This document shows, piece by piece, positions 5,618 to 14,698 of a DNA stretch of 32,827 nucleotides. The stretch covers positions 1 through 32,827 of the forward strand of contig JAGYLC010000013.1 in NCBI GenBank assembly GCA_018401235.1, written 5' to 3'. This stretch comes from Kiritimatiellia bacterium (lineage in GTDB: Bacteria; Verrucomicrobiota; Kiritimatiellia; SS1-B-03-39; UBA6053). The notes beneath the pieces were generated by a model. That model searched no databases, was not told the origin of the DNA, and saw only the letters and a list, made by a program, of their open reading frames with translations. Within the stretch, counting starts at the first letter, position 1; the number at the start of each line of letters is the position of its first letter. The position numbers were made by a program, and so were the translations under genes.

Positions 5618-6715
5618 TCAGGACCCACTTTCGTTCAGGGTCATGGTGATCCGGTTGCCCTTTGGACTCGGTTGCCAGACGATGTCACGCACAAGGCCCT
5701 TAAGGAGGGTCATTGCCGATTCATCTCCTACTTCCGCATCCGTCAGGAAATCACCCGGAGCCTCCTGATCCTCAAACTGGAGTTGAACCGTGCCCTCTGT
5801 TTCGGAATAGGAAAGCGTGACGGTGATAGCCCCCGAATCCCCACGCTGGTAATAAAAAGCCACGATCTTCTCGATGGCCAACTGAATGTGTTGCAACAAC
5901 GTGCGGCTGAAAAAATGTTTTTCGCAGAAAGTTTCGATATCCGCGTTCATTTCAAAGACATCAAAATCCCGGTGCTCGATATGATAGCGGAAGCTGCGAA
6001 GGCGGTTGATGAATACCCGAGTTCTTTCCCGCTGAGGCGCGCTCATGATCTGTTCTGGGGGACCTGATTCATAAATGCCACCTTCATCCATGTAAAAAAT
6101 CCGCTTGGACACATCGCGGGCGAAATTCAGTTCGTGTGTCACAATCACCATCGTCATCCCTTCGCGGGTGAGTCTGCGAATGACCGCCAGCACCTCGCTG
6201 ACCATGGTGGGATCCAGTGCGGAGGTGGGTTCATCGAACAACATCACCTTCGGCCTCATGGAGAGGCACCGTGCAATGGCGACCCGCTGTTTCTGGCCGC
6301 CCGAAAGTTCGCAGGGAAGGCTAAGGGCTTTCTCGCCCAGACCGACCATGCGCAATAGTACGTGACTACGCGCTTCCGCCTCCTCGCGTGCCTCGTTCAA
6401 AATCCGAACCGGACCAATGGTTAAGTTATCCAACACGGTCAGGTGGCTAAACAAATTGAAGGACTGAAACACCATGCCCGTTTTACGCCGAATACGGGGA
6501 ACATCCGCCCCCGGGTCCAATATATCCTCGCCTCCAATGAAAATGTGTCCGCTTTGCGGTGTTTCCAAGCGATTGATGCAGCGCAAAAAGGTGCTTTTAC
6601 CCACGCCAGAGGGCCCGATCACCGAGACGACTTCCCCTTCCTGGATCGATGCCGAAACATTTTCCAGCACACGCTCGTTTCCAAAACGCATGGAGAGGTT
6701 CTGAATTTCAATCAT
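5618..6715 (-). CDS. Amino-acid ABC transporter ATPase fused to a C-terminal GHKL/RsbW-like domain
   Basis: Residues 1 to about 238 form a polar-amino-acid ABC ATPase: Walker A GPSGVGKST (34-42), Q-loop Gln84, signature LSGGQ (137-141), Walker B VMLFDEP (157-163) and H-loop His194. The usual family ends near FINRLR (about 235-240), but this chain continues to 365. The tail resembles an anti-sigma-type histidine-kinase ATPase fold: QHIQLAIEKIVAFYY where the N-box helix should be, FEDQEAPGDF near the G1 box, and LLKGLVRDIVW plus GNRITMTL as the last helix and strand. The N-box Asn and box glycines appear replaced, so ATP binding is doubtful. I chose ATG 6715 (MIEIQNLSMRF); it overlaps the permease gene end by 8 bp. 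A longer frame to 6766 would lie inside the permease gene. Confidence 0.88.
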   Translation of the reverse strand: MIEIQNLSMRFGNERVLENVSASIQEGEVVSVIGPSGVGKSTFLRCINRLETPQSGHIFIGGEDILDPGADVPRIRRKTGMVFQSFNLFSHLTVLDNLTIGPVRILNEAREEAEARSHVLLRMVGLGEKALSLPCELSGGQKQRVAIARCLSMRPKVMLFDEPTSALDPTMVSEVLAVIRRLTREGMTMVIVTHELNFARDVSKRIFYMDEGGIYESGPPEQIMSAPQRERTRVFINRLRSFRYHIEHRDFDVFEMNADIETFCEKHFFSRTLLQHIQLAIEKIVAFYYQRGDSGAITVTLSYSETEGTVQLQFEDQEAPGDFLTDAEVGDESAMTLLKGLVRDIVWQPSPKGNRITMTLNESGS

Positions 6716-7427
6716 GTCCGGAGCTCCTCTGCCTCGACAACCGCCTTGGCTGGAGACGATTCTCAAGTCCGGTGAGCGCCATCAGCAGCAGCCATGAAAT
6801 CATAAAATAGAGACCCGCGACCATGACCAGCGGAAAAAAGGCGTCAAAGGTGCGACTGCGGATGATGTCTGCCGTGCGGGTGAGATCCTGCACAGCGATA
6901 AAACCGACCACGGAGGTCATCTTGACGAGGTTGATCACTTCGCCTTTGTATACCGGCAAAATCCGGCACACCGCCTGCGGGGCGATGATGTGGGTGAAGG
7001 TCTGCACACGGGTAAACCCGAGCGCCAGCCCCGCCTCCCGTTGTCCAGGATCGATGCTTTCAATGCCGGCGCGGTAAATCTCGGCGGCATAGGCCGCGAA
7101 GGTGGCCGCGAAGGTTGCGATGGCCACCCAGACCGGAGAAATGTTCACGGAGGCAAAGACAACATAGTAGGCCAGCAGCAGCATGACCGGGAGCGGGATT
7201 CCGCGGATGATTCCGATGTAGGCTTTTGCCGGAACGACCAGTCCGGATCGGCCCGCCATGCGCATGCGGCAAATGAGACCGCCCAGGACAGACCCCAGTG
7301 CGATCGCCCCGATTGAAATCACGATCGTGGTTTTTAGACCATCCAGCAGGAGCAGATACCGTTGCTCCTGCAGCACATTGGCATCTATGCTCTCTGCCAG
7401 ATTCCGGAAGAGCACGACTTGATCCAC
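6708..7427 (-). CDS. Polar amino-acid ABC transporter permease (HisM/GlnP type)
   Basis: This 239-residue inner-membrane protein has about five membrane segments and the EAA loop that docks on the ATPase: AAEIYRAGIESIDPGQREAG followed by LALGF and IIAPQAV. The stretches IGIIRGIPLPVMLLL and GEVINLVKMTSVVGFIAV are typical of the His/Glu/Gln permease family. It starts at GTG 7427, 3 bp after the receptor gene stop, with GGGA about 8 bases upstream. It overlaps the ATPase gene by 8 bp. Only one permease gene is present, so a homodimeric channel is likely. The substrate cannot be read from the sequence. Confidence 0.93.
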   Translation of the reverse strand: MDQVVLFRNLAESIDANVLQEQRYLLLLDGLKTTIVISIGAIALGSVLGGLICRMRMAGRSGLVVPAKAYIGIIRGIPLPVMLLLAYYVVFASVNISPVWVAIATFAATFAAYAAEIYRAGIESIDPGQREAGLALGFTRVQTFTHIIAPQAVCRILPVYKGEVINLVKMTSVVGFIAVQDLTRTADIIRSRTFDAFFPLVMVAGLYFMISWLLLMALTGLENRLQPRRLSRQRSSGHD

Positions 7428-7430
7428 AGG

Positions 7431-8228
7431 CTATTCCCTGACCAGTGCCGCGATACCGCCCTGATAATACCGCTCCGAGAAAAGAACGCGTTTGGCGCGT
7501 TCCTCGGTAATGGTGATGCAAGCCCCGATCATGTCCACCCTGCCGGAGGCGAGGGCAGGAATCATGCCGCCAAAATCCATATTGACCACGACCAATCTTT
7601 TTCCGAGCCGTTGGGCAATCCGATGCGCCAGTTCAATGTCCAGACCCACAACCTCGCGGCTGCCATCCACAAAGGAAAACGGCTCCGTCACGGCTGCGGT
7701 TCCAAAACGGAGGATTTCGGTGCTGTCGACCGGAGCGAATACCGGCATGGGGGCGGGGGCTCCCTGCGCCGGCAGCCAACGGGCGTGCATCTCGTTGTAG
7801 GCTCCGTTTTCGTTGATTTCCCGGATGACCGCGTCCATGGCTTCTTTCAGTTCCACATCCCCCAACCGTACGGCAAATCCATACTCGTCGACGGTAATCA
7901 TTCCATCGAGCACCTTGAGCCCTGGGTTTTTTGCGGCGATATTTCTCAAAATGGGTTCATCATAGGCGGCCGCATCCGCCCGACCGGCCTGAACGGCCAT
8001 ACAGGCATCCAGCACACTGTTAAAGTAATCAAATGTGGCATCCGGAAATCGGGAGAGCACCAGTTGGTCCGCCACGGTTCCAGTCGGCACAGCAAAGGTC
8101 GCTTCCGAAAGCTGTTCCAAGTCCGTGATCGTTTCGCGAGGGCCACGACACCCGGTCAACCAAACAAAAACAAAAAACAGCAGCAACCCGAACGGGGGGC
8201 GTAAACAAAGATTCAAGCATTTTTTCAT
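7431..8228 (-). CDS. Amino-acid-binding lipoprotein with circularly permuted SBP_bac_3 domain
   Basis: This 265-residue protein has a signal peptide with lipobox LTGC (Cys27). What follows is in unusual order. Residues about 35-153 match the second half of a solute-binding protein: DLEQL, PTGTVADQL, AGRADAAAYDEP, GFAVRLGD and NGAYNEMHARWLP, which normally ends the family. A linker rich in Ala and Pro (154-168) leads to residues about 172-265, which match the first half: ILRFGTAAVTEPFSFVDG, VVGLDIELAHRIAQRLG, ALASGRVDMIG, ITITEERAKRVLFSERYY. The chain ends at the hinge, where the C-lobe would normally begin. The ligand-type Arg244 and Asp90 are kept. The start at 8228 (MKKCLNL) was chosen because it gives a clean lipoprotein signal. 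It is the first gene of the operon. Confidence 0.87.
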   Translation of the reverse strand: MKKCLNLCLRPPFGLLLFFVFVWLTGCRGPRETITDLEQLSEATFAVPTGTVADQLVLSRFPDATFDYFNSVLDACMAVQAGRADAAAYDEPILRNIAAKNPGLKVLDGMITVDEYGFAVRLGDVELKEAMDAVIREINENGAYNEMHARWLPAQGAPAPMPVFAPVDSTEILRFGTAAVTEPFSFVDGSREVVGLDIELAHRIAQRLGKRLVVVNMDFGGMIPALASGRVDMIGACITITEERAKRVLFSERYYQGGIAALVRE

Positions 8229-8763: not shown

Positions 8764-8830
8764 GAACGCAGGGTTGCGAAGCGGAATTCAAACCCTAAAC
8801 GGCAGAGATGACAATATGGTCCGTGTTTTT

Positions 8831-9043
8831 AGCCCCAAAGGGGCGGAGGCATACCAGCCCGGGGCACCCCGGGTTTGGTGCACAGAAACCGCAAGAGGTC
8901 TGAAGGACCGATGCAAATCGCGTCGCCCACGCTGATCCCGATGTCCCCGGTTATGCGGCGGTCCTTCAGACCGCATCCTGAATTCTTGTCCGCAGACCCC
9001 GCGCGTTGCGCGGGGCTGGTATGCGGCCACCCCTTCGGGGTTT
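8831..9043. repeat. Large imperfect palindrome (REP-like or degenerate mobile element)
   Basis: The two outer arms mirror each other. The left begins AGCCCCAAAGGGGCGG and reads GGCATACCAGCCC; the right reads GGGCTGGTATGCGGCC and ends CCCCTTCGGGGTTT. A second inner pair, GGTCTGAAGGACCG at 8897-8910 and CGGTCCTTCAGACC at 8959-8972, is also complementary. Local GC-rich hairpins (CCCGGGGCACCCCGGG, CCCCGCGCGTTGCGCGGGG) sit within the arms. The whole could fold into a long cruciform. It encodes nothing recognisable. Similar hairpin-rich elements are often dispersed in bacterial genomes and moved by RAYT transposases, but none is seen here. Confidence 0.75.
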
Positions 9044-9173
9044 AGAAGGCGGATCCGGAAAAGGTGCCAAAGCAAATTCCTTCGGGATCAGGAACTCTGA
9101 ATTGATACCTAGGTGCCGCCACCAACCGAGCCTGTAGCGCTTCAAGCCCCTGTTGCTCTTCATTTAGACTCAT
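9042..9173 (-). pseudogene. Small ORF or N-terminal gene fragment abutting the palindrome
   Basis: A 43-codon frame begins ATG at 9173 with MSLNEEQQGLEALQ and continues RYQFRVPDPEG, ending in a stop made by the first bases of the palindromic element. The composition looks like a real protein N-terminus (amphipathic helix, then a PDPEG turn). One reading is that the element inserted into and truncated a gene. The family is not recognised, and the chain is too short to be sure it is coding. Confidence 0.3.
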
Positions 9174-9635: not shown

Positions 9636-9664
9636 AAAAAAAATTCTTGCTGCATCAGCAAGAA
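9636..9664 (-). terminator. Rho-independent terminator of the NOS gene, overlapping its stop codon
   Basis: Read on the minus strand, TTCTTGCTG (9664-9656) and CAGCAAGAA (9652-9644) form a perfect 9-bp stem around a 3-base loop, followed by eight T residues (9643-9636). The TGA stop of the nitric oxide synthase gene (9657-9655) starts at the last stem base and fills most of the loop. Confidence 0.85.
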
Positions 9665-10773
9665 ATGGTTTCCTGATCTTGATAGAAAAAATTGGGAAGT
9701 TCCGCACGTGTATCCCATGATTTATGAAATAAAGGCGAAGTTGAGCCTGAAATCGGCGGGACCAACCAACTCCAATCGCCCTTGACATTGCGGCCACAGT
9801 GGTTTTCCTGTTTGGCGAATCGGATGAATTGATTTGAGGCGTTATGGTGATCGATCATTGTGATTCCGTCTTTCTCAAATGAATATAGGACTGCTTCATT
9901 CAACTCGATGAGGGAGCGGTCTTTCCAAAGGTGGTTACGACGGTTCATTTCTAGCCCCATTTTAGATGCAATTGCGGGAAGCATGTTGTAGCGATTCTCA
10001 TCACTGAGATTTCGGGCGCTGATTTCGGTTCCCATATACCAGCCGCTGAAAGGGGCGCAGGTATATCTTGCGCCGGCAGCTGCAAAACACATGTCGGTAA
10101 TGATCGGGACTGCATGCCATTTCAATCCCAGTTGCTCAAACCATTTGTATTTTGGGTGGCGAATTCGGACTTCGACGATCACATCGCGCGGAATTTCATA
10201 CCAGCGAATTGGCTGATTGGGAATTTGGATTGCGAGCGGCAGGATATCAAAAGCACTGGGGTTTTTGGGCGGATTCCATCCGGAGTGGAGCGCGATGCGC
10301 GTAAACCATGCATTTTGGGGGTCGCCAAGAATTTTGCCGTCACCAATATCATATCCGGCGTATCGGATGAGCTGGTGATTGAGTATTTTTGGGCCTTGTT
10401 TATTTTGATCGGCTGGAGCAAAAATGCTGAGGACGGGCTTGATGCGTCCGCCATTGGTTGCGATTTTTAGGTGTTCAACGCATGCCTCAAATACATCATC
10501 AGCAAGATTTACGTGCCGAAGATCACGGACGACAAGGCTGCGCCAATACAATCTGCCGATGCAACGTGTTGCGTTTCGCCACGCCACTCTCCCAGCATGC
10601 TCGAGCAGCTCAAACGGCAGGGCAGGCGGGCACTCTGCTGGGGAGGATTGAGGATCTGTGGCGGACACCCCTTCGCATGCCGCCATATGGAGGAAATCCA
10701 AGTATTCTTTGTTCGCATTTCCACTTGGAGCACGGGCAGTTTTACCCTCGGGGTAATAGATTGTTTCAAGCAT
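9655..10773 (-). CDS. nos: Bacterial nitric oxide synthase oxygenase
   Basis: This 372-residue protein matches the NOS oxygenase domain throughout. It has the heme-thiolate motif AWRNATRCIGR (proximal Cys71), the arginine-binding segment GWYMGTEISARNL (catalytic Glu250) and the pterin/heme-edge segment WSWLVPPISGS (about 334-344) followed by LFHKSWD. It lacks the N-terminal zinc hook and any fused flavin reductase, like Bacillus-type NOS, so NO production from L-arginine would need a separate cellular reductase; none is nearby. The ATG at 10773 follows an in-frame stop directly, so it is the first possible start, but no clear ribosome site precedes it. Local GC is lower than in the hydantoinase genes (23 of 60 bases in 9841-9900 against 39 of 60 in 13501-13560), suggesting transfer. 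Confidence 0.96.
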   Translation of the reverse strand: MLETIYYPEGKTARAPSGNANKEYLDFLHMAACEGVSATDPQSSPAECPPALPFELLEHAGRVAWRNATRCIGRLYWRSLVVRDLRHVNLADDVFEACVEHLKIATNGGRIKPVLSIFAPADQNKQGPKILNHQLIRYAGYDIGDGKILGDPQNAWFTRIALHSGWNPPKNPSAFDILPLAIQIPNQPIRWYEIPRDVIVEVRIRHPKYKWFEQLGLKWHAVPIITDMCFAAAGARYTCAPFSGWYMGTEISARNLSDENRYNMLPAIASKMGLEMNRRNHLWKDRSLIELNEAVLYSFEKDGITMIDHHNASNQFIRFAKQENHCGRNVKGDWSWLVPPISGSTSPLFHKSWDTRAELPNFFYQDQETISC

Positions 10774-11123: not shown

Positions 11124-12731
11124 TCACACCGTCCCGTATCCACCCCCACCCGGGGTTTCCACCCGCAGGAGGTCTCCAGGTGACAAGTGGTCGCTTCCTT
11201 TTCCCGGCAAGGGGCGGATTTTCCCGGACGCTTCTTGAATTTCCTGGCAACCCGGTTTTCCGGAACTTCCGTTGGCGGCGCCTTTCGGGCCCGTCCGTCT
11301 CCTCTCCGTCAACACCGTAACTTCCATGGACGCCAGCGCCTCCCACTCCCGCAACAGGCCGTCTCCGCCGGGAAAGGCGCCCGCGCCTCCACTGTCCTTG
11401 CGGATTTCCAGACGCCGCACCCGTAAAGGATAAGCGAACTCAATCGCCTCCACCGGCGTGTTAAGGGTATTGGTCATGTGGGTCTGTACTGCGGAAGCGC
11501 CACGGACGCCCGGTCCGCCACCCGCGCCTCCGCCCAGGGTCTCGTAATAGGCAAAGCCGCCGCCGGGCGTTTTCCCGCCTAGGGTCACATTGTTCATGGT
11601 TCCTTGGGATTGCGCGGGCACCGCGCCCGGCACGGCCCGATCCAGCAGTCCCAGCACCAGATCCACTACCCGTTGCGAGGTCTCCACATTGCCGCCCGCC
11701 ACGGCCGAGGGCCATTGCGCGTCCAATACCGAGCCCGGATGCGTCTGCAAGCTGATGGACCGAAAACTGCCATCGTTCATTGGCGGATCTGTCTCCCCGG
11801 AATCCCGGCACATCCAACATAAAAACACATAATACACCGCAGACTCCGTAATCGCACGCACCGCGTTGAGACTGCCCGCTACCGCATCATCACTCCCCCG
11901 CAGATCCACACACACCCCCGCCTCCGAAACCGTCAGCCCCCCCCTCAACACCGCCGCCACCGCCGTACCCGACTCGTCCTCGATTTCTTCCTCGCAGGTC
12001 CAACAACCCTGCGGTAATTGGGCCAACGCCGCACGCATGCGCCGGTCCGCGTATTCCATCAAGGCCGCATTCATTCTCCGCAGCCGCTCGAAACCCTGCC
12101 GATTTCCCAGTTCGAGCCAGCGGGTCTCGCCGATGTGGTGCGCATGAAGCTGCGCCCGCATGTCCCCGCGCCGTTCGCCTGGGTTCCGACTGTTCGCGCA
12201 GAAAATCCGCATCAAATCCTCCTCCAATTCTCCGGTCCGCACCAGACGCACCGGCGGAATTCGAAGCCCCTCCTGATGGATGCAGCGACTGTTGGGCAGC
12301 GAGCCGGGGGTCATCCCGCCCACATCCGCATGATGGGCCCGGGTGGCCGCATAACCGACACACTCCGGCCCCGCAAACACCGGGCTCACCAGGGTCAGGT
12401 CCGGCAGATGTGTTCCCCCTTCAAACGGATCGTTCAACATCACCACATCCCCCGGCCGCAGTTCGGGAAAGGCTTTTCGGGCCGCCTCCACGCTGCGGGG
12501 CATCGCCCCCAGATGCACGGGGATATGGGCCGCCTGAGCAAGCAACCGCCCCTCTTCGTCAAACAACGCACAACTGAAATCCTTGCGTTCCTTGATATTC
12601 GGCGAAAAGGCCGTGCGCGCCAGCACCGCCCCCATTTCATGGGCGATTGAACTGTAAAGATGATGAAACACGGAAAGATCCGCAGCCGAAACTTCCTCCC
12701 CCCACGCAGTCGTTAACGCATCGCGCTTCAT
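11124..12731 (-). CDS. hyuB: N-methylhydantoinase B / 5-oxoprolinase-type subunit B
   Basis: This protein of about 535 residues belongs to the HyuB family. It shows SIAHEMGAVLARTAFSPNIK, DFSCALFDEEGRLLAQAAHI and DVVMLNDPFEGGTHLPDLTL near the N-terminus, and GGGAGGGPGVRGASAVQTHM and DLLRVETPGGGGYG near the C-terminus; the glycine-rich end is a family hallmark. With HyuA it forms an ATP-dependent amidohydrolase that opens hydantoin, 5-oxoproline or a related cyclic amide. The ATG at 12731 overlaps the hyuA stop by 4 bp (ATGA); a TTG 6 bases upstream is also in frame but less likely. The exact substrate cannot be told from the sequence. Confidence 0.94.
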   Translation of the reverse strand: MKRDALTTAWGEEVSAADLSVFHHLYSSIAHEMGAVLARTAFSPNIKERKDFSCALFDEEGRLLAQAAHIPVHLGAMPRSVEAARKAFPELRPGDVVMLNDPFEGGTHLPDLTLVSPVFAGPECVGYAATRAHHADVGGMTPGSLPNSRCIHQEGLRIPPVRLVRTGELEEDLMRIFCANSRNPGERRGDMRAQLHAHHIGETRWLELGNRQGFERLRRMNAALMEYADRRMRAALAQLPQGCWTCEEEIEDESGTAVAAVLRGGLTVSEAGVCVDLRGSDDAVAGSLNAVRAITESAVYYVFLCWMCRDSGETDPPMNDGSFRSISLQTHPGSVLDAQWPSAVAGGNVETSQRVVDLVLGLLDRAVPGAVPAQSQGTMNNVTLGGKTPGGGFAYYETLGGGAGGGPGVRGASAVQTHMTNTLNTPVEAIEFAYPLRVRRLEIRKDSGGAGAFPGGDGLLREWEALASMEVTVLTERRRTGPKGAANGSSGKPGCQEIQEASGKIRPLPGKGSDHLSPGDLLRVETPGGGGYGTV

Positions 12732-14698
12732 TCGCAAACCCCCACAAGATTTCCAACCCGATCCGGGCGCACCTGCCAGCCGGACGGAACCAGAATCGTG
12801 GAAAAATCGCCCAAAATCAACACCGGACCTTCCACCACGTCCCCTTTCAGCAGATCCCTGCGCCTCAGCACCCCGGGCGAAATCTCCATCGGCGTGCCCT
12901 CCCCTTCCCTTTCCGCCAACAATGGCAATTCAATCTCCGGACTCGGGGCCTGTCCACGCAGGCGCAACGTCACCACCTCCACCGGCTCATCGGGATCCGC
13001 GTGACCGTAACGCGTGCGGTGCAACTCGTGAAACGCCCCGGCGGCCTCCGGCAATTTTCCGTATTCCATCGGCACGCACAGTTCATGCGATTGACCCCGA
13101 TACCGCATTTCCAGCATGGGGACAAACGACAGTGCCGACGCATCAATTCCGTCACCCGCAAAGCGCTCCACCAGATCTTTTTTCAAGGCCGCCAAATCCG
13201 CCTGTATGAGCGCCGCTGAATCCGCAGTCCAGGGCCGCATCACGGTTTGACTGGTTTCATGACGCATCGGCGTGGCCACTGCCCCCAGCGCACTGAGCAC
13301 GCCAGGGAGACAAGGCACCAACACCCGTTTCATATTCAACGCCTCCGCCAGCGCAAACACATGCAACCCACCAGCACCGCCAAAGCCCACTAGGGTGAAA
13401 TCGATAGGATCATATCCACGCTGCACGGAAATCACCCGGATCGCTGCCTCCATGTGGGTGTTGACCAACCGAAGTACACCCCGGGCGGCAGCTTCGGCAT
13501 CCAAGTTCCCCATCTGTTCCCCGAGTTTCGCCAGCGCGGACCGGGAACGCTCCGCATCCAGCCGTATGCGACCCTGCAGAAAAGCCTCGGGACGCAAATT
13601 CCCCAGAACCACATGCGCGTCCGTTACCGTCGGATGCGCCGCATTCCCGTAACAGGCCGGACCCGGATACGCGCCCGCGCTTTCCGGCCCCACCCCAAGC
13701 GCACCCCCGGAATCCACTGCGGAAATAGAGCCCCCGCCCGCGCCTACCGTATGCATATCCACCATCGGCACCCCCACCGGAAATCCCCCCAGTACCTGCT
13801 CGGTGGACACCACAGGCTCGTTGCGAATCAGGGCCACGTCCGTGGAGGTTCCCCCCATGTCAAAGGTAATCAGATTCAATTCCTGTCCGCCTGCTCGGGC
13901 AGCCGTGCAGGCGCCCAAAACCCCCGCAGCCGGACCAGAGAGCAGCGTCCGCACCGCCTCTTCCCCGGCCCGTTTCGGCGAAAGACAACCACCATTCGAC
14001 TGGACAATACGCAGGCTTTTTGCCCCCAGTGTACTTGCATGCGCCTCCAACTTACTCAAATAAGCTTCCATGACCGGCCGCACATACGCATTCACCACCG
14101 TGGTGGAACCCCGCTCCACTTCCCGGAATTCCGGCAACACCCGATGCGAGAGCGAAACCGGGAACCCGGCAGCTTCCAACACTTCGCCCACACGGCGTTC
14201 ATGTTCAGGCATCAAAAACGAAAACAGAAACAGAACCGCCACGGACGACACCTTCTCCCGCCTCAGTGCGGAAATGATGCCCTCCAGAGGAGCCAAATCC
14301 AGAGGCATCAGAATGGTTCCGTCGGCGCCCACACGCTCCGGCAACTCGAAACGTAATTCCCTCTGGACCAGAGGCTGTACCAGACGGGGCATGAGATCGT
14401 ACAAGCGGGGACGCGCCTGGCGGCCGATTTCCAGGACATCCTTGAAACCTGCCGTGGTGATGAGCGCGGTTTTCGCTCCTTTGCGCTCCAGCAGCGCATT
14501 GGTGGCCACGGTGGTGCTGTGCAGGAAAGCAAAGGACTCCCCGCGCGTCACATTTTGCACCCCCTCCAGCACCGCCTTTTCATAGGAACCGGGGGTGGAA
14601 CTCAGCTTATATGAACGCAAAACCCCCTCGTCCAAGGCCAGCACATCCGTGAAGGTGCCCCCGGTATCCACCCCCACCCGAAGCCTTGTCGGCGCCAT
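12728..14698 (-). CDS. hyuA: N-methylhydantoinase A / 5-oxoprolinase-type subunit A
   Basis: This 656-residue protein opens with RVGVDTGGTFTDVLALD, the first phosphate loop of the ASKHA-like fold in HyuA, and continues with LHSTTVATNALLERKGAKTA, FDMGGTSTDVALI (second phosphate loop, in the middle of the chain), HTVGAGGGSISAVD and VGFGGAGGLHVFALAEAL. These are standard HyuA landmarks, and the length is normal for a separate A subunit. It should bind ATP and activate the cyclic amide for HyuB. It is first in the two-gene operon. Transport or regulatory genes for a hydantoin pathway are not adjacent, so the physiological substrate stays open, 5-oxoproline being one option. Confidence 0.95.
   Translation of the reverse strand: MAPTRLRVGVDTGGTFTDVLALDEGVLRSYKLSSTPGSYEKAVLEGVQNVTRGESFAFLHSTTVATNALLERKGAKTALITTAGFKDVLEIGRQARPRLYDLMPRLVQPLVQRELRFELPERVGADGTILMPLDLAPLEGIISALRREKVSSVAVLFLFSFLMPEHERRVGEVLEAAGFPVSLSHRVLPEFREVERGSTTVVNAYVRPVMEAYLSKLEAHASTLGAKSLRIVQSNGGCLSPKRAGEEAVRTLLSGPAAGVLGACTAARAGGQELNLITFDMGGTSTDVALIRNEPVVSTEQVLGGFPVGVPMVDMHTVGAGGGSISAVDSGGALGVGPESAGAYPGPACYGNAAHPTVTDAHVVLGNLRPEAFLQGRIRLDAERSRSALAKLGEQMGNLDAEAAARGVLRLVNTHMEAAIRVISVQRGYDPIDFTLVGFGGAGGLHVFALAEALNMKRVLVPCLPGVLSALGAVATPMRHETSQTVMRPWTADSAALIQADLAALKKDLVERFAGDGIDASALSFVPMLEMRYRGQSHELCVPMEYGKLPEAAGAFHELHRTRYGHADPDEPVEVVTLRLRGQAPSPEIELPLLAEREGEGTPMEISPGVLRRRDLLKGDVVEGPVLILGDFSTILVPSGWQVRPDRVGNLVGVCE

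Follow-up and report, generated by a model that had tools for sequence, protein, structure and literature searches.

A conserved and apparently undescribed branch of circularly permuted SBP_bac_3 receptors, accompanied by an unusual ABC ATPase

GlnH, HisJ, ArgT and TmArgBP are SBP_bac_3 receptors (cluster F, Type II), and both halves of the protein described here belong to their sequence family. In GlnH/HisJ-type relatives an arginine (R75/R77) binds the alpha-carboxylate of the ligand and an aspartate (D157/D161) binds its alpha-amino group. Tandem SBP_bac_3 domains fused to an amino-acid permease are found in GlnPQ of Lactococcus lactis, which has the canonical arrangement SBD1-SBD2-permease (PMC8025302, 6h30). 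A natural circular permutation has been described for TpMglB-2 (Tp0684), a Type I glucose receptor from Treponema pallidum; the study put forward the term ‘Type Ic’ (‘Type Ic/Cluster Bc’) and an adaptation to anchoring (PMC4990184). In a literature search that covered few subscription papers, TpMglB-2 was the only natural receptor permutant found, and no permuted SBP_bac_3 protein, solved or published, was encountered.

We analyzed a stretch of 32,827 nucleotides from a Kiritimatiellia bacterium (contig JAGYLC010000013.1), called the window in the following. It contains a receptor gene in the order SBP, permease, ATPase, with these features:

7431..8228, (-) strand: circularly permuted SBP_bac_3 lipoprotein, 265 aa, the coordinates including the stop codon (from translation, Pfam, PDB alignment and half-profiles)
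8148..8228, (-) strand: signal peptide and lipobox LTG-C27 (LTGC; Cys codon 8150-8148), from inspection of the translation
7773..8129, (-) strand: SBP_bac_3 C-half, residues 34-152, lobe 2 and the last helices returning to lobe 1 (half-profile, 190 bits)
7716..7772, (-) strand: C-to-N linker, residues 153-171, the permutation joint (linker of 16-23 aa across family units)
7434..7715, (-) strand: SBP_bac_3 N-half, residues 172-265, lobe 1 core with the hinge strand last (half-profile, 161 bits; Pfam profile 1-91)
7959..7961, (-) strand: codon of Asp90, equivalent to GlnH D157/HisJ D161
7497..7499, (-) strand: codon of Arg244, equivalent to GlnH R75/HisJ R77
6708..7427, (-) strand: polar amino-acid (HEQRo) ABC permease, 239 aa, GTG start (TIGR01726, 60.9 bits, cut-off 42.2; BPD_transp_1)
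5618..6715, (-) strand: GlnQ-like ABC ATPase, 365 aa (NF007027, 300.9 bits, residues 1-238; ABC_tran)
5621..5986, (-) strand: C-terminal domain of the ATPase with predicted RsbW/SpoIIAB fold, lacking the GHKL nucleotide-binding motifs (Pfam HATPase_c_2, model, Foldseek)

The receptor frame runs from the ATG at 8228 to the TAG stop at 7433-7431. Its translation bears out the coordinates, strand and motifs given in the initial annotation, which had proposed a circular permutation because motifs that normally close the family come first and those that normally open it come last. Pfam SBP_bac_3 (PF00497) matched the protein with 106.8 bits (curated cut-off 26.4) as two separate segments, with profile positions 1-91, its N-terminal part, falling on residues 173-264. 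In the PDB alignment with TmArgBP (6svf, E 3e-37 for the whole match), residues 8-103 correspond to residues 169-264 of the query and residues 114-227 to 38-152. Scoring profiles built for each half separately, a check of the kind suggested with the proposal, placed C before N at the residues listed above, whereas E. coli GlnH, HisJ and ArgT gave N then C. Judged by these profiles and alignments, the swap is far beyond chance. Neither the window protein nor any of its relatives has the N-half before the C-half in one chain as PF00497 demands, and it is on this evidence a permuted variant and not a canonical member.

The predicted hinge strand (mature residues 233-238) closes the chain, in line with the earlier reading that it stops at the inter-lobe hinge, and lobe 2 of canonical receptors starts at the element that is the first helix here (mature 11-14, DLEQL); both chain ends thus lie where a normal receptor crosses from lobe 1 to lobe 2. 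Compared with GlnH, HisJ, ArgT and TmArgBP, the halves are swapped, the chain is hinge-terminated and one covalent lobe crossing replaces two. From the chain ends we infer that the membrane tether has moved to the hinge/lobe-2 end. TpMglB-2 is likewise a natural circular permutant, a tethered ABC-type receptor and one in which ligand binding is kept, but it has a Type I glucose/galactose fold, a shorter moved end segment, a fourth hinge crossing and an unrelated sequence family. Type Ic requires a Type I sugar-binding fold and sequence; the window protein matches SBP_bac_3-type families only and does not qualify.

After un-permutation in silico the protein aligned collinearly with GlnH, HisJ and ArgT. 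In this alignment R244 takes the place of GlnH R75/HisJ R77, D90 that of D157/D161, T239 that of T70/S72 and F219 that of GlnH F50. Across the window protein and 57 relatives R244, F219 and E182 are invariant (58/58 each), and D90 is conserved in 54 of 58 sequences with asparagine in the other 4; the initial annotation had named and numbered Arg244 and Asp90 correctly. The carboxylate arginine, the amino-group aspartate, Thr239 and Phe219 are thus shared with the canonical receptors, and the PF00497 combination of carboxylate Arg and amino-group Asp is present. What differs, apart from the invariant E182, is the side-chain pocket of GlnH, in which D10, K115 and H156 are replaced by A178, P48 and Y89. 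The alignment suggests that the grip on the amino-acid backbone is kept while the side-chain pocket would be new. Since the GlnH pocket residues are replaced, the ligand is probably an amino acid or an analogue that GlnH does not predict, a class that we infer without binding data.

The receptor stop codon is followed after 3 nt by the permease GTG, and the ATPase gene overlaps the permease end. With a HEQRo permease domain and a GlnQ-like ATPase in one operon the system qualifies as a HEQRo importer; NF007027 (GlnQ) was the best model for the ATPase, which stays below the cut-off of 379 of that equivalog. A promoter and terminator scan was uninformative. The ATPase carries ~120 extra residues that were present in all 24 ATPases aligned (one more, from L027, was cut by the contig end). 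Pfam HATPase_c_2 matched 20 of these 24 at E<=1 (best 7.5e-6), the window's own domain falling below the curated cut-off. Its model reached a pLDDT of 89.4, and Foldseek returned RsbW/SpoIIAB as best matches (TMq 0.63-0.72; best PDB fold match RsbW, 6m37), many of these PDB entries having been solved together with STAS partners. By Foldseek and HATPase_c_2 the domain meets the definition of a GHKL fold, which it has in common with the RsbW/SpoIIAB anti-sigma kinases; in contrast to these, the N-box Asn, DxG and GGLG motifs were absent in all aligned ATPase domains, whereas free RsbW-like neighbours have kept them. Given the missing motifs, the domain should be an RsbW-like pseudokinase, a reading that depends on the alignment. 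A C-terminally extended ABC ATPase with a STAS partner is also known from MlaFB (PMC7367683), but that is a lipid transporter and its extension comprises ~25 aa, compared with a whole RsbW-fold domain here.

A scan of genome contigs yielded 56 distinct loci with the permuted family, of which at least 14, from several lineages, include STAS, RsbW-like or SpoIIE genes (L009, L011, L013, L016, L019, L027, L028, L044, L047, L049, L051, L058-L060). Contiguous genes in the same direction form ATPase-STAS-RsbW-SBP in L016, ATPase-STAS in L049 and STAS-SpoIIE-SBP in L027; operons with such genes span L016:2112-8950, L058:4881-9636, L060:1746-6441, L027:3028-8001 and L049:4827-10421. No STAS, RsbW or SpoIIE gene was found beside the operon in the window, which has the fused ATPase domain only, and the single SpoIIE protein of this genome is encoded elsewhere; partner switching therefore rests on the other loci. 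The neighbour genes make a strong but not a formal case, as no background rate is available and the loci are related. We infer that the transporter is probably tied to partner-switching regulation.

We are confident, with some reserve, that the protein is a permuted Type II receptor that would form one flytrap, be tethered at the hinge and serve an amino-acid ABC importer. The same neighbours, the pseudokinase domain on the ATPase and standalone copies with no permease gene in their vicinity (L010, L017, L022 and others) would also suit a dedicated sensor subunit, i.e. a permuted lipoprotein that reports its ligand to signalling via a transporter-like complex and is no transport receptor. We regard this as unlikely but not negligible: in the window and its close relatives the SBP gene is operonic with permease and ATPase, and in the one genome that was checked (G179) orphan copies coexist with a 736-aa frame containing two permuted domains, which falls in the same size class as fused receptor-permease frames, its permease part being unchecked.

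Fusions to the permease bear on how the two halves pair. In 22 loci (L011, L014-L016, L020, L021, L026-L028, L031, L032, L034, L035, L038, L043, L046, L049, L055, L058-L060, L063) 1-3 further permuted domains are fused to a permease, always as (C-N)n-permease: n is 1 in L014, L026 and L031, 2 in L027, L028, L032 and L043, and 3 in L015, L020, L021, L049 and L055. Split SBP and permease genes as in the window also occur in L008, L009 and L041. In all scanned frames the family arrays begin with C and end with N, (CN)n, compared with NC in 18/18 canonical controls. After merging of overlapping loci the scan comprised 116 distinct permuted units and 16 canonical ones; the one exception, L019:5744-6322, is cut by the contig end and has a C-half only. 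The C-to-N linker measures 16-23 aa in all family units, while the N-to-C joint varies from 3-6 aa (one of 13) in canonical receptors to 7-28 aa in permuted tandems. The near-constant C-to-N and variable N-to-C lengths mark C-N as the unit that folds, in tandems as well. Where domain and permease are fused, a short linker connects the hinge end of the final domain to the permease. GlnPQ shares with these proteins the fusion of tandem SBP_bac_3 domains to an amino-acid permease, but its phase is N-C-N-C-permease; the window protein, a single permuted and unfused lipoprotein, does not fit the GlnPQ type of canonical-phase domains fused to a permease. Continuous profile matches in very long frames (1187-1863 aa; G033:C13:25599-26285, G137:C39:188673-189356, G080:C56:36898-37557) were left out of the permuted count, as a canonical tandem would produce an identical match; these frames, whose phase was not determined, could be sensor proteins with tandem SBP domains.

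AlphaFold2, run with 58 sequences, modelled the window protein as one compact fold (pLDDT 93.0, pTM 0.85) in which the full set of elements is present. Foldseek, which follows the chain order, matched the model to 446 PDB chains at E<=0.001, with TM values of 0.4-0.5 for SBP-like folds; type-II-like folds (HisG, OpuAC, a phosphate receptor) led in this range, and domain 1 of TmArgBP alone (6y16, 39% identity) also matched. Such values are what a permutant model would be expected to give in a sequential comparison and are no proof in themselves, since a sequential alignment cannot follow the permutation and leaves the fold undecided. The initial annotation was to be refuted if the halves did not predict as one Venus-flytrap fold: the compact packing speaks for one fold, while overlap with GlnH in a permutation-aware superposition is lacking, and the two-lobed fold remains a prediction. 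The C-half of one molecule might instead pair with the N-half of another in a domain-swapped dimer; swapping is known in the superfamily and the linker is flexible and proline-rich. The compact single-chain model, the nearly constant linker length and the fusions of a single domain to the permease make this distinctly improbable, although a dimeric transporter would still allow swapping in the fusions.

The permuted receptor is a conserved one. The 57 aligned relatives are 32-93% identical to the window protein over the mature part and share order, length and end point; closely related standalone proteins have 255-271 aa and mostly end in GGIAALVRE or similar hinge residues. By titles and tree labels the family occurs in Bacillota, Bacteroidota, Ignavibacteriota, Chlorobiota, Pseudomonadota, Thermodesulfobacteriota, Gemmatimonadota, Acidobacteriota and Verrucomicrobiota, and two records, Trichlorobacter thiogenes (L031) and Methylophilales LSUCC0135 (L013), carry no MAG label. 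The suggestion in the initial annotation that similar proteins exist in some Clostridia was right, with Pelotomaculum and Syntrophomonas found, but too narrow. Of 198 genomes sampled from L055's phylum (Bacteroidota according to its title), 20 matched the family at E<=1e-40; a search of plasmids for the family gave no match. Against the nearest relative (L008) dN is 0.038 and dS 0.78, and the resulting dN/dS of ~0.05 indicates, at the level of sequence comparison, that the gene is under purifying selection. An artefact of frame or assembly was rejected, as the same gene is 90% identical in G009 and also occurs in isolates, Trichlorobacter thiogenes being one. Among 58 close relatives a standalone orthologue was confined to the window genome and to G009, a member of the same family; from this patchy distribution we infer that horizontal transfer is likely.

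The reading that can be dismissed is a decayed or truncated tandem receptor or pseudogene whose upstream N-half and downstream C-half have been lost, the second refuter named at the outset, which we give hardly any credence and consider refuted for the present gene by the shared order and length of the 57 relatives across phyla, the low dN/dS, the lack of any remnant in the 3 nt before the permease and the existence of (CN)n-permease arrays. Only as a route of origin does this reading remain tenable. When the 60 best PDB sequences were compared with the family profile, all matched in separate half-stretches or in a single half, with the exception of the GlnPQ tandem 6h30, in which the profile covers the slice C(SBD1)-N(SBD2) without a break; the permuted unit resembles the middle slice of such a tandem, and an excision from a tandem receptor is plausible by this comparison but not shown. 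A single origin has weak support: the tree separates canonical from permuted sequences at one split with low values (80/56), and it contained only 16 canonical rows.

Several observations accompany the family. A second, divergent standalone permuted subfamily is 32-37% identical and usually follows an ATPase gene (L015:9750-10616, L021:9802-10599, L028:9193-9987, L032:9106-9879, L055:9869-10651, L013:9776-10717); in several members the binding Asp is replaced by Asn. Many Pseudomonadota and Gemmatimonadota relatives have no adjoining transporter gene. Standalone permuted lipoproteins repeatedly have genes for GPP34 (Golgi phosphoprotein 3-like) and Na/Pi cotransporters in their vicinity (L013:7902-8618, L036:3-521, L047:4227-4913; loci L036, L037, L044, L047, L051). 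The MAG titles of L025, L048 and L050 (Kuenenia, Janthinobacterium, Planktophila) look mis-binned, since the proteins they encode lie near those of Gemmatimonadetes or gammaproteobacteria. In the window itself, a bacterial nitric oxide synthase oxygenase domain (PF02898, 453 bits) is encoded upstream of the operon at 9655-10773 on the (-) strand. The intergenic region holds inverted repeat arms of 52 nt (8820-8871 and 9002-9053, 75% complementary) enclosing a smaller inverted repeat (8897-8915/8954-8972), and 8820-9053 looks like a repeat element. A hydantoinase/oxoprolinase A and B pair lies upstream of the NOS gene (11124-14698, (-) strand); since 5-oxoproline derives from an amino acid, the pair might conceivably be connected with the substrate of the importer.

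We propose that the gene encodes a naturally permuted receptor of the cluster-F type (SBP_bac_3, Type II). The chain would begin at the start of lobe 2, run through this lobe, cross once to lobe 1 and, after a short linker, complete lobe 1, ending where a normal receptor crosses into lobe 2. In a single Venus-flytrap site R244 would grip the alpha-carboxylate and D90 the alpha-amino group of an amino acid or close analogue. The lipid anchor would, as inferred from the chain ends, pull at the hinge/lobe-2 end instead of the start of lobe 1, and with one covalent inter-lobe crossing left, closing may be looser or differently driven. Ligand would then be passed to the cognate transporter, whose permease and ATPase genes follow immediately downstream, transport being an inference; in relatives the hinge end of the permuted domain leads directly into the permease. 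With lower confidence, the pseudokinase domain may dock a STAS protein, so that import would be controlled by, or report to, partner switching: the STAS protein might act as a switch on the ATPase, in the manner of MlaB on MlaF (PMC7367683); alternatively, the transporter might titrate the STAS protein and thereby signal uptake. A more speculative extension, which we hold only tentatively, is a widespread class of ABC importers in which all receptor domains are permuted, the hinge is the attachment to membrane or permease and the ATPase pseudokinase docks STAS, physically coupling capture, transport and transcriptional or second-messenger control.

This branch of SBP_bac_3 is real, conserved and apparently undescribed, broader than first suspected and accompanied by an unusual regulatory ATPase. 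Standard annotation says simply SBP_bac_3 and conceals the permutation. No natural circular permutation seems to have been documented for a Type II receptor, yet this one is conserved across many phyla and also occurs in 1-3 copies fused to a permease. The family is a natural experiment on how hinge and tether point govern closing and delivery in a receptor, a question that engineers have otherwise approached through artificial permutants made for biosensors. The RsbW-like domain on the ABC ATPase makes a link between amino-acid import and partner switching directly testable.
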